Shown: in pieces, positions 38,444-41,924 of the stretch
Numbering within the stretch: the first letter of the stretch is position 1
Layout of the letters: each line of letters starts with the position of its first letter
Source: Desulfoplanes formicivorans
GTDB lineage: Bacteria > Desulfobacterota > Desulfovibrionia > Desulfovibrionales > Desulfomicrobiaceae
DNA: 64,000 nt
Reading direction: 5' to 3'
Assembly (NCBI RefSeq): GCF_001748225.1
Contig: NZ_BDFE01000020.1
Location: 132,138-196,137 of the forward strand
Translations under genes and position numbers: made by a program
The notes under the pieces: model-generated
Databases searched by the model: none
Told to the model about the DNA's origin: nothing
Seen by the model: only the letters and a program-made list of their open reading frames with translations

Positions 38444-40216
38444 TTATAGTTCCTTGTTTTTCAACCCCTGGGGCACATATTTTTTAACCACCATGGGCAG
38501 GAAAGCAAGAAGCACAAGAAGTCCTATGCCGGCAAGGCATTGGGTAGACCATTTGCCCTGGAGCAGATCAAACAGGGAACTGGACAAAAGGATGTAGGCC
38601 ACGCATCCGGGCAGCATGCAGATAAATGAGGTGAAAAAATAGGTGGAAAATTTGATCCTGGTGAGCCCGAGGGCATAGCTGAGCAGATTAAAGGGGAAAA
38701 GGGGCACAAGGCGGGTAAAAGCCACTATTTTCCATCCGTGCTGTTCTGTCTGCTGTTTGAGTTTCAGAAAACACGGGTTGGTCATTTTTTTTTCCACCCA
38801 GTCCGAGGCCACATACCTGGCCACCAGAAAGGCCAGACAGGCACCGGTTGTGGCACCGGTAATGCCGTAGACAACGCCCCATACCGGGCCGAAGATCACG
38901 CCGCCGGCAATGATGAACGGCGCTCCAGGCAGAAAAAAAGCCGGAGCAAGGGTGACCAGAAGAATAAAGGCCGCCGGAGCAAGGATTCCGAATTCCCCCA
39001 CAAGGCGATGGATGTTTTCCTGGGTGGCCAGTCCATCCACCCCGGCTATCCTTGCGCCCACAATGCCTGCAACAATGAACAGCAGCACAAGGAGCCTGGC
39101 CGGACTGATTCCTGACCTGGTGCAGGTATTGACCGGAAGTTCCTTTTCCAGGACGTCTTTCCGGTTGGAGCTGGTCAGCCTGGATTTGAGCCAGAGGCGT
39201 GCGAGATAGGTAAAGGGAGATACCGTGCTTTTCACCCGGTTGTTCATGGTTTGCTGCGGCTCAAAAAGAAGATCCAGCACATGGCTTGTGTTCATGGATT
39301 TTCCCAGAAATTCGCAACACCCGGCACAATAGGTAATCACCTTCCGGTTACCGGCCTCGGCTTTTCTCCTGCTCTGCCAGTTCAAGGCCAATGGGGGGGC
39401 AACCGGATACACCGTGCCTCCCTGGCCGCAGCAGATGGTTTTTTCACCGGAGTGGGGCATCTCATGGATTTCAAGGCCGGTTTTTCTAACCAACTGGCGC
39501 ACGCTGGCGTGGATGTCCTGGTTGCATCGGGTGCCGCAGGGGTCATGGATGGTCACCTGGCCGGTCAACACCCTGTCATCGGGCCAGGTTTCGGCCATGA
39601 GATCATAGGCTGAGCGAACGGCCAGTTTCTGTGCATAGGTTGCAAATATGCGGTAACAGTTGGGGCAGGCCGTGATGACTCCCTGGACCCCGTGTTGCTC
39701 CAGAAATTGTTCCTGGGATGAAAAATTTGATTGGAAGAAGGCTTTGCGGCCCAGATCGTGGGAGGGTTTGGCGCAGCAGTCCAGAACAATGCCCAGATTG
39801 GGCACCCGGGTTTTCAGCCATGCATAGACCTGCAGGGTTCTTTTGGCCCGGGTGCCGGCAAGGGCACATCCGGGCCAAAAGACCTGGGTACAATTCTTGG
39901 GTATGGTGTACAGGGAAAAACGTTTGGAGAGTCCTCTTTGTTCGTAGGCCATGATTTGTTTGTGCTCTGCGAACACCTTCTGGTTCTCTTCAAACACCAT
40001 TTGCCGCATGTGCAGAAATATCCCGGCCGGGTTGAGTCCCTTGGGACAGGTTGCAGCACAAAGGCCACAGAGGCTGCATTGAAAGGCGATCTCTTTGTCA
40101 AGAGATCCTTCCAGGACCTGCCGGACAATGTCCCCGGGATTGCCGTATTGTTGCAGAAAGAGGCAATTTTTGACGCAAAGATTGCATCCGGCACAGTCAT
40201 GGGCAAATGTTTCCAT
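38444..40216 (-). CDS. CCG-domain iron-sulfur protein fused to a TVP38/TMEM64 membrane domain
   Basis: 590 residues from ATG 40216; a TTG at 40234 with AGGA upstream is also possible. The N-terminal half (about 1-340) resembles GlpC/GlcF/HdrD-type proteins: two 4Fe-4S motifs, CAGCNLCVKNC and CSLCGLCAATCPKG, then two CCG modules (LDCCAKPSHDLG and ICCGQGGT). The C-terminal half (about 375-590) is a TVP38 (VTT) membrane domain with FFLPGAPFIIAGGVIFGPVWG and FTRLVPLFPFNLLSYALGLT. The fusion joins disulfide-type redox chemistry to a transport-like membrane domain. It directly follows the selenocysteine rhodanese on the same strand. Confidence 0.85.
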   Translation of the reverse strand: METFAHDCAGCNLCVKNCLFLQQYGNPGDIVRQVLEGSLDKEIAFQCSLCGLCAATCPKGLNPAGIFLHMRQMVFEENQKVFAEHKQIMAYEQRGLSKRFSLYTIPKNCTQVFWPGCALAGTRAKRTLQVYAWLKTRVPNLGIVLDCCAKPSHDLGRKAFFQSNFSSQEQFLEQHGVQGVITACPNCYRIFATYAQKLAVRSAYDLMAETWPDDRVLTGQVTIHDPCGTRCNQDIHASVRQLVRKTGLEIHEMPHSGEKTICCGQGGTVYPVAPPLALNWQSRRKAEAGNRKVITYCAGCCEFLGKSMNTSHVLDLLFEPQQTMNNRVKSTVSPFTYLARLWLKSRLTSSNRKDVLEKELPVNTCTRSGISPARLLVLLFIVAGIVGARIAGVDGLATQENIHRLVGEFGILAPAAFILLVTLAPAFFLPGAPFIIAGGVIFGPVWGVVYGITGATTGACLAFLVARYVASDWVEKKMTNPCFLKLKQQTEQHGWKIVAFTRLVPLFPFNLLSYALGLTRIKFSTYFFTSFICMLPGCVAYILLSSSLFDLLQGKWSTQCLAGIGLLVLLAFLPMVVKKYVPQGLKNKEL

Positions 40217-40242: not shown

Positions 40243-41220
40243 CTATTGGGGCTGATATTCCCCGGTTTCCATCGGCATGTTGGGATCTGCAGCCCACTCG
40301 TAAATGGATGCTTCGTAGTTTCTGACGTGCTCAAAGCCAACTGCTCTGAGGATCATGGATGTGAATCCAGATCTGATACCCATAGTTCAGTAGAGGACAA
40401 AATCATCTTCCGGGTGGATGCCCACCCCGGCCATGATCTGCTTGATCTCCTGGGCGGATTTGACGCCAGCATCAGGGGTGAGAAGTGCGGTCCATTCCAG
40501 CCATTTTGACCCTGCAATATGACCGCCCCTGGCCTCTCCCCTGGAGGTGTCCTCACCGGTATACTCCTTCAGGGATCTGACATCCACAATCTTGAGGGTG
40601 TCCAGGTTGTCATAAACATAGGCCTGGTCGGCCTGAAAGGATGTGTCGTAATCCTTGAGCACCAGTCCTGTGGCAGGGACCGGGGTGGTGCGGGTGGTGG
40701 AGAGGGGGTAGCCCTTTTGTTTCCACATGGCCAGCCCACCGTATAACAGCCGGGCATTTTCAAAGCCAGCCAGTTTCATCTGCCAGACGGCCCGGCCGCC
40801 GCCACCTGGGCCTTTGAAAATATCGGAATAGGCCACCACTGTTTTGGTATTGTCCACGCCCAGGGATTCAAGTTTTGCTTTAAGTTTTTCCTTGGGCAGA
40901 ATGGTTCCCCATCCCTTGTCGCCGGGTTTTCCGGTACAATCCGACAACCCCTTGAATCCAATGCTGATGGCTCCTGGAATATGTCCCTTGGCATAGCCTC
41001 TGGGATGGCTGGCATCCAGAATGACAATATCCTTGGAACCCAGTTTGGCGTAAAGCTCGTCCGGAGTGATAAAAATATCTCCCTGGGTCACAAATTCGGG
41101 AATTTCCACCGGGCCCGTTTGGTGGGGGGCATTGGAATCTCCCCATTTGGTTTTGGCCATAAAGGCCAGGAGTGCGGCAATGGCAACTCCTGCAATGAGC
41201 ATACACGTTTTTTTCTTCAA
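40243..41220 (-). CDS. Exported two-domain rhodanese (thiosulfate sulfurtransferase), predicted selenoprotein with in-frame TGA at codon 278
   Basis: Translation from TTG 41220 (AAAAGGAGG upstream) gives a signal/anchor (about 1-24), then rhodanese domain 1 (about 50-165, ILDASHPRGYAKGHIPGA, with Asp in place of Cys in AYSDIFKGPGGGGRAVWQ) and domain 2. The frame meets TGA at 40387-40389 after PEDDFVLY. Reading on gives TMGIRSGFTSMILRAVGFEH and then VRNYEASIYEWAADPNM, ending at TAG 40243-40245 (325 residues). In Cys homologues the catalytic loop is YCxxGxRS, so TGA occupies exactly the nucleophile position. Selenocysteine insertion is the simplest reading. A sequencing error or nonsense mutation is the alternative, but the downstream 47 codons stay conserved. 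Sulfur or selenium transfer in the periplasm is inferred. Confidence 0.85.
40351..40373 (-). promoter_or_regulatory. Candidate bacterial SECIS hairpin downstream of the TGA
   Basis: On the minus strand, 13 bases after the TGA, GATC-TGGAT-TCAC-ATCCA-T-GATC folds into a 9-bp stem with one bulged U and a 4-base loop. The loop starts 22 bases after the TGA, inside the range usual for bacterial SECIS elements (about 16-37). The bulged U fits; the loop UCAC lacks the G often found at its first positions, unless the top pairs open. The fold is predicted by eye. Confidence 0.5.
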
Positions 41221-41231
41221 AATGCCTCCTT

Positions 41232-41924
41232 TTAACTCTGAGTCTGAATCTTTTCTGTTTTGGGTCGGCTTGTTATTTTTTTCAATAAAATGGTCAAGAT
41301 GCTCAGGGCGAAGAGTATCAAAAGCCCCATGACAAATTTCTGGGTGCCGCCCACAAGCATTTCCCCTGCATAGGAATAGATCAGCGTGGCCGGAAGCTGT
41401 CCCAGTCCGGTGGCCCAGAAAAAGGGCCAGAAGCTCATGGACGTGAGACCTGCGGCATAGCTGACAATATCAAAGGAGATAAAGGGCAGCAGGCGGGCAA
41501 TGAGGATGGTGTACTGCCCATATTGTTTGAAAAAATCATCAATGCCCTCCAGGGCCAGCTTGGAGGTCATCCGTTCGACAAATCCTCTGCCAAGCCATTT
41601 GGCCAGGAAAAAGCAGAGGGCTGCACCGGCCATGGCGCTGGACCAGGAGAGGATGGCTCCCTTGATCCATCCGAACAGTGCCGCATTGGCAAAAGTAATC
41701 AAAAAGGCGGGCAAAGGGGCGATAACTGACTGGAAAAGCATGAGGCAAAAGGAGATCACAGGTGCCCAGATGCCGAAAGAAACAATGTAGCCCTTTATAT
41801 AGGCCACATCGTACATGCCAAAGAGGAAAAACAGCTGTTCAATGGTATCCCGAACGGGTTTGATGAGAAAACAGGCAAGAATGACAACCACAAGGCCACA
41901 AAGGGCTATGCGCATTTTTTTCAA
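41232..41924 (-). CDS. TVP38/TMEM64 (VTT domain) family membrane protein
   Basis: 230 residues. I start at TTG 41924 because AAGGAG lies 7 bases upstream; ATG 41915 is three codons inside. Six hydrophobic spans are visible. The VTT core has FQSVIAPLPAFLITFANAALFGW, then FFLAKWLGRGFVERM and IARLLPFISFDIVSYAAGLT. It is the first gene of the minus-strand operon; its stop lies 11 bases before the rhodanese start. The family is widely conserved and its transported molecule is not established. Confidence 0.9.
   Translation of the reverse strand: MKKMRIALCGLVVVILACFLIKPVRDTIEQLFFLFGMYDVAYIKGYIVSFGIWAPVISFCLMLFQSVIAPLPAFLITFANAALFGWIKGAILSWSSAMAGAALCFFLAKWLGRGFVERMTSKLALEGIDDFFKQYGQYTILIARLLPFISFDIVSYAAGLTSMSFWPFFWATGLGQLPATLIYSYAGEMLVGGTQKFVMGLLILFALSILTILLKKITSRPKTEKIQTQS

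Follow-up and report, generated by a model that had tools for sequence, protein, structure and literature searches.

We found that a two-domain rhodanese gene of Desulfoplanes formicivorans has an in-frame TGA at the codon of its catalytic cysteine and that this codon is very probably read as selenocysteine (Sec). The gene lies in the 64,000-nucleotide stretch of genomic DNA that was analysed (the window). A Sec rhodanese had been predicted in a preliminary description of the stretch, and the prediction is supported by the alignment of the Cys column, by the Sec genes of the genome, by a conserved hairpin and by the TGA of the homologues. At the level of sequence, the recoding signals, the position in the active site, the conservation of the operon and the single-nucleophile architecture are evident. 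The features are listed in Table 1.

Table 1. Features of the rhodanese locus in the window
Feature	Position	Strand	Remarks
Predicted two-domain rhodanese selenoprotein gene	40243..41220	-	TTG start 41218-41220, TAG stop 40243-40245; 325 residues
In-frame TGA, codon 278	40387..40389	-	Catalytic Cys position; predicted selenocysteine
SECIS-like hairpin GAUC-UGGAU-(UCAC)-AUCCA-[U]-GAUC	40351..40373	-	13 nt after UGA; 15 of 15 copies compared
Stretch 3' of UGA, more conserved across phyla at nucleotide level and at silent sites	40330..40386	-	Comparative
N-terminal hydrophobic segment, signal anchor	41155..41212	-	Residues ~4-21; sequence and model
VTT/DedA/TVP38-type membrane protein gene	41232..41924	-	Likely TTG start 41922-41924; just upstream
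Two 4Fe-4S clusters and CCG (cysteine-rich, Hdr-like) domain fused to VTT domain	38444..40216	-	Downstream gene

Reading frame and active site

Translation of the window showed that the TGA is the sole interruption of the reverse-strand frame 41220-40243. Beyond it the frame reads TMGIRSGFTSMILRAVGFEHVRNYEASIYEWAADPNMPMETGEYQPQ up to the TAG, and the TTG start is preceded by a good Shine-Dalgarno sequence, AAAGGAGGCATT. An open extension of 47 codons past the TGA has a probability of about 10% by chance and is weak evidence by itself. The extension corresponds to the conserved C-terminal part of a rhodanese domain. Pfam PF00581 matched the read-through protein at 4.7e-30 in two stretches (two rhodanese domains), and homology spans the TGA in rhodaneses of the PDB as well as in 13 other full-length genomic homologues, all with TGA at this position. 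A changed genetic code was ruled out: TGA is the ordinary stop of many window genes and terminates 28 of the 54 ORFs of at least 150 aa, so the code is not changed.

The proposal that the TGA falls exactly at the catalytic Cys was confirmed, the Cys column aligning with homologues and with solved rhodaneses. In alignments with PDB entries, residue 278 matched the active-site loop Cys of 1e0c, 1uar and 8k55 (the aligned loops are THCQTHHRSG in 1e0c and YCRIAERSS in 1uar). An AlphaFold2 model (mean pLDDT 83) placed it in a loop between strand 274-277 and helix 282-293, within a block of pLDDT 92, and the folds nearest to the model in a Foldseek search were thiosulfate sulfurtransferases. By Pfam, PDB alignments and the model, the protein has two rhodanese domains with the nucleophile in the CxxGxR loop of the C-terminal domain, Sec taking the place of Cys. 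Its loop, U-T-M-G-I-R-S, contains no second Cys. The motif GIRSGFTS, described earlier as following the TGA directly, is present, but T-M comes first. The statement that the substitution by TGA affects the nucleophile alone is slightly off: Met at +2 (ATG, 40381-40383) is invariant in all Sec copies of the clade to which the window gene belongs (clade B; UTMG), and at this position A, K, V or G occurs in the Cys homologues of Bacillota. The Met may relate to the SECIS, to reinitiation or to catalysis.

RhdA of Azotobacter vinelandii (1e0c), a thiosulfate sulfurtransferase, shares with the window protein the fold (Foldseek E 4.6e-23), the two domains and the position of the nucleophile, at 31% identity across the aligned region. 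It has Cys in the loop CQTHHR and an aligned chain without signal segment, whereas the window protein has UTMGIR, with predicted Sec, and a hydrophobic N-terminal anchor. Most Bacillota orthologues have a lipoprotein signal with a lipobox Cys instead of such an anchor. In three of them (L031, L041 and L043) the lipobox Cys is the only Cys in the protein; some others have Cys at ~72 and ~95. No NCBIfam model matched the window protein above its cut-off. The scores were 88 bits against a curated cut-off of 250 for NF008557 (3-mercaptopyruvate sulfurtransferase) and 36 against 200 for NF040901 (ExtH selenite/tellurite rhodanese).

Evidence for recoding of the UGA

Homologues were sought in GTDB genomes. 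The 17 near copies that reach codon 278 comprise 14 full-length genes, the window gene included, L034 (a truncated duplicate), L052 (frameshifted) and L087; all 17 have TGA at this codon and none has Cys. The 13 full-length homologues are 52-61% identical to the window gene and come mostly from Desulfotomaculia/Desulfosporosinus. The only other close copy, L089, ends before codon 278. A true stop in relatives had been named in the preliminary description as evidence against recoding; neither a true stop nor a Cys occurs here in any close homologue. More distant homologues (~40% identity) read YCTxGIRS, that is, Cys. Among these, Clostridia proteins paired with VTT (L024, L025/L033 and L048; 39-43% identical to the window protein) have the same gene pair and, where the N terminus was read, a lipoprotein signal, but unlike the window gene they have the loop CTxGIRS and no TGA. 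The duplicate L034 (D. metallidurans, G303:C5) is partial and retains the TGA half of the gene; it and L089 (G815:C42) show signs of local rearrangement.

These comparisons bear on the simplest alternative, a nonsense mutation or a misread TGC or TGT, by which the gene would be dead or encode a Cys enzyme. One substitution (TGC or TGT to TGA) would suffice, Cys homologues are widespread, and a few damaged copies are known (the truncated L089 and the frameshifted L052). However, 14 full-length genes from two phyla, assembled independently, share this TGA, their remaining frame is intact and conserved, and Cys is found in no close copy. Conservation refutes the reading of the window rhodanese as a pseudogene, and we consider mutation or sequencing error extremely improbable.

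The genome has the genes for Sec insertion that the preliminary description had listed for a search: selA (617 bits), selB (410 bits), tRNA-Sec (82 bits) and selD (333 bits). selB was present in 18 of 18 Sec-form genomes tested and in 28 of 30 tested genomes overall, the two exceptions being Cys-only. Most Cys-form genomes carry selB as well; its presence is therefore not specific and amounts to consistency, not proof. The selD gene of the window organism (L018, C17:78963-79883) has one in-frame TGA itself, and the selenophosphate synthetase of this organism is probably a selenoprotein, too.

A bacterial SECIS element had been suggested just downstream of the UGA, and all 15 copies examined have a conserved hairpin there. 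Nucleotide identity between the window and the other genes was 0.63 in the 60 nt before the TGA, 0.855 in the 60 nt from the TGA and 0.75 in the next 60. Third-base agreement in synonymous codons (14 orthologues) was 73% for +1 to +20, compared with 50% upstream and 57% farther down. The pattern GAUC-[U/G]GG[A/U/C]U-loop-...-GAUC was common to the folds of all 15 sequences. Over the nine pairs of the hairpin, 88% of the 135 pair cells were standard, against 19-43% in controls with sliding partner columns; one pair changed on both sides in a compensatory manner (A-U to U-A), and in the individual folds of four divergent copies the register of the upper stem was shifted by one base. The observed folding energies lay within the lowest 0-5% of synonymous recodings in 14 of 14 cases (lowest 1.6% for the window).

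A typical bacterial SECIS has a guanosine in a small apical loop (PMC1088965). When the upper stem is paired to its top, the apical loops found here (UCAC, AUGC and AUAU) do not have the guanosine position of the typical element; a conserved GG is present in the upper stem instead. Taken by itself, the 57-nt stretch of the window was no more stable than dinucleotide shuffles (z -0.46). Because the single-sequence fold was not significant and the apical loop of the window lacks G, we call the hairpin only SECIS-like. RNAalifold, applied to 63 columns, favoured a different, nearly invariant 3' helix that is also compatible with coding constraint, and the upstream hairpin was therefore tested separately. 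An Rfam scan of the window returned one tRNA only and no SECIS family, which is uninformative for the hairpin.

The invariant Met 280 raises a second alternative, namely that the UGA is a regulated true stop, yielding a 277-residue product, and that reinitiation at an ATG two codons past the UGA produces the C-terminal 45 residues. All Sec copies of the clade have this in-frame ATG, 3 nt beyond the TGA, and Met is absent from the Bacillota Cys forms. Yet the ATG has no Shine-Dalgarno sequence, neither fragment would contain the nucleophile, the Cys homologues are single chains, and a second Sec clade (below) has S, not M, at +2. Moreover, selABCD and a suitably placed hairpin account for the same facts, and we regard reinitiation as highly improbable.

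Origin of the gene and its neighbours

Among 297 genomes of its class, only the window genome gave a match at 1e-30, and no other match among 395 sampled genomes of the phylum exceeded 38% identity. The tree placed the window gene within an otherwise Bacillota clade of Sec genes (support 100/99). This nesting makes horizontal transfer likely; the gene pair was probably acquired horizontally from, or is shared with, Bacillota related to Desulfotomaculia/Desulfosporosinus. No relative was found on viral contigs, and among the plasmid matches listed identity reached only ~30-33%.

A second Sec clade (L075, L079, L080, L082 and L084) was found in five genomes (G623, G422, G703, G551 and G523) from two genera of one family (f13) of the window's phylum. 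Its members are two-domain rhodaneses whose TGA aligns with that of the window gene and is followed by a hairpin of 5-7 bp with an AGUUUG loop. They differ from the window protein in sequence (30-32% identical), in their loop (U[QH]SGVRS) and in their position in the tree, where their neighbours are L078 (Cys, same genus) and L081 (Ser at the site). A tree with all Sec rows in one clade was rejected (p-AU 8.7e-6), and on this phylogenetic evidence Sec has arisen, or been retained, at least twice among two-domain rhodaneses.

The VTT gene lies 11 bases upstream of the rhodanese gene. A VTT homologue (roughly 47-68% identical) adjoins 14 of 14 clade-B Sec genes and most of the Cys relatives. The fusion protein encoded downstream resembles NF045663 (diclust_near_Sec), far below the cut-off; Clostridium sp. 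CS001 (L024) has a separate FeS-CCG gene after its rhodanese-VTT pair.

In Bacillota the pair has as recurrent neighbours a C-GCAxxG-C-C (seleno)protein and TIGR04283 and TIGR04282 glycosyltransferases, and it is also near either ArsS with an AhpD-like partner or a BioB-like radical SAM protein. Together with VTT and rhodanese, this cluster (L023, L025 and L054-L060) looks like one pathway. It also has a conserved membrane protein (family F05), and at one locus the Sec rhodanese is directly followed by another gene of the rhodanese family, which is longer (472 aa; L055:5310-6728, G357). None of these Bacillota families (C-GCAxxG-C-C, TIGR04283, TIGR04282, ArsS/BioB-like) is found beside the window gene. 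ArsS (TIGR04167) had no match above cut-off in the window genome, and, judged by this marker, the arsenosugar link is therefore not extended to that genome. Defence-system models gave no match.

Proposed chemistry and relation to known Sec rhodaneses

From these data, we infer Sec incorporation, export, substrate, direction of transfer and a partnership with, and role for, the VTT protein. Sec would be inserted at UGA 278 by SelB and tRNA-Sec, helped by the downstream hairpin, and would serve as the catalytic nucleophile of a two-domain (TST/COG2897-type) rhodanese. The protein would be moved across the membrane, by its signal anchor in the window organism and as a lipoprotein in most orthologues, and would work beside the VTT membrane protein encoded in its operon. 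The selenolate may attack a donor of sulfane sulfur (or selenium), for example thiosulfate or polysulfide, to form an enzyme Se-S (selenenyl-sulfide) intermediate, from which sulfur would be handed to a thiol or another external acceptor. This cycle, in which the selenenyl-sulfide on Sec is passed to an external acceptor, is the simplest and most likely one. In L031, L041 and L043, which have no Cys besides that of the lipobox, release must use an external acceptor; judging from their sequences, the mature proteins cannot form an intramolecular Se-S bridge with a resolving Cys, unless the lipid-modified N-terminal Cys is misassigned. We also infer the lifestyle of the organism, a presumed sulfate reducer, and the Se-S chemistry. 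To the sulfurtransferase chemistry itself we give reasonable but not strong confidence. The literature searched yielded no enzymatic evidence that any Sec rhodanese transfers sulfur.

A different activity on the same scaffold, that of a Sec-dependent thiol oxidoreductase or peroxidase, would be in line with the redox function of most characterised Sec enzymes; the FeS-CCG protein downstream resembles an electron-transfer or disulfide-reductase partner, and the Cys residues at ~72 and ~95 of some orthologues might take part. On the other hand, the UTMG loop has no resolving Cys, three orthologues have the lipobox Cys only, and the loop U-x-x-G-x-R fits rhodaneses. We therefore think such an activity unlikely. 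Equally doubtful, in our judgement, is a rhodanese that handles selenium (selenite, perselenide or organoselenium/arsenic chemistry), in which Sec would favour Se or As species over S. It agrees with the weak similarity to ExtH, a protein of a selenite/tellurite operon (2.9e-9, below the cut-off), with the location of the Bacillota copies among families named for arsenosugar biosynthesis (C-GCAxxG-C-C, TIGR04283, TIGR04282 and ArsS/BioB-like radical SAM) and, as far as the citing account goes, with a link between a DedA protein and selenite resistance (Ledgham 2005, as cited in PMC10127716). But the window genome has neither ArsS above cut-off nor those families beside the gene, and the Cys homologues have the same VTT pairing.

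Sec-containing rhodanese-related sulfurtransferases were predicted in 2005 from three COG2897 sequences of the Sargasso Sea (PMC1088965), and Sec rhodanese-type sulfurtransferases were predicted again in 2008 (PMC2398784). Current lists contain five rhodanese selenoprotein forms, one of which is COG2897/UxxG (PMC9312934, PMC13188914), and a marine deltaproteobacterium has a rhodanese-like domain among its predicted selenoproteins (PMC8318568). The COG2897/SseA-type sulfurtransferase (PMC1088965; 'rhodanese form 4, UxxG' in PMC13188914) resembles the window protein in its two domains, Sec for Cys, UxxG and downstream hairpin. By motif and domain layout only, as tabulated in PMC13188914 and PMC9312934, UTMG in a two-domain COG2897-type protein fits form 4. 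The window clade differs in that its proteins are predicted to be exported or lipoproteins, are VTT-paired and are found in anaerobic Bacillota; this comparison with form 4 (reference MCY3690685.1) is by motif and description. TsoB (NF045694) and the rhodanese-related (seleno)protein NF041203 likewise combine a rhodanese domain with Sec, but have a different architecture or Sec site (UxxxxU, CxU; PMC13188914); the window protein scored 29.8 bits against a cut-off of 115 for NF041203 and did not match NF045694. The literature searched did not mention export, a constant VTT partner, the spread in anaerobic Bacillota or a second origin of Sec; the selenoprotein-neighbourhood study PMC12013261 lay outside its scope. 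Sec rhodaneses as such were thus already predicted, and the secreted lineage, the VTT partner and the repeated Sec swap are useful additions.

Ordinary gene callers end the gene at codon 277 and lose the active site; as no NCBIfam model scores above cut-off, the relatives are likely mis-annotated, too. We tentatively suggest that the exported Sec rhodanese and its dedicated VTT/DedA protein, with the FeS-CCG/VTT partner of some genomes, might form an undescribed membrane module that moves S, Se or an intermediate of organo-chalcogen/arsenic type at or across the membrane and is linked, in Bacillota, with the C-GCAxxG-C-C/ArsS/TIGR04283-TIGR04282 cluster, in an enzyme family that went from Cys to Sec at least twice. 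A Sec sulfurtransferase acting outside the cytoplasm, with Cys counterparts in nature and only one nucleophile in several of its orthologues, would be a clean system for asking why selenium is worth its cost to an enzyme that need only carry sulfane sulfur. That Sec occurs in two separate clades means that the swap was repeated or repeatedly kept, and the constant VTT neighbour may offer a handle on the function of DedA/TVP38-type proteins.
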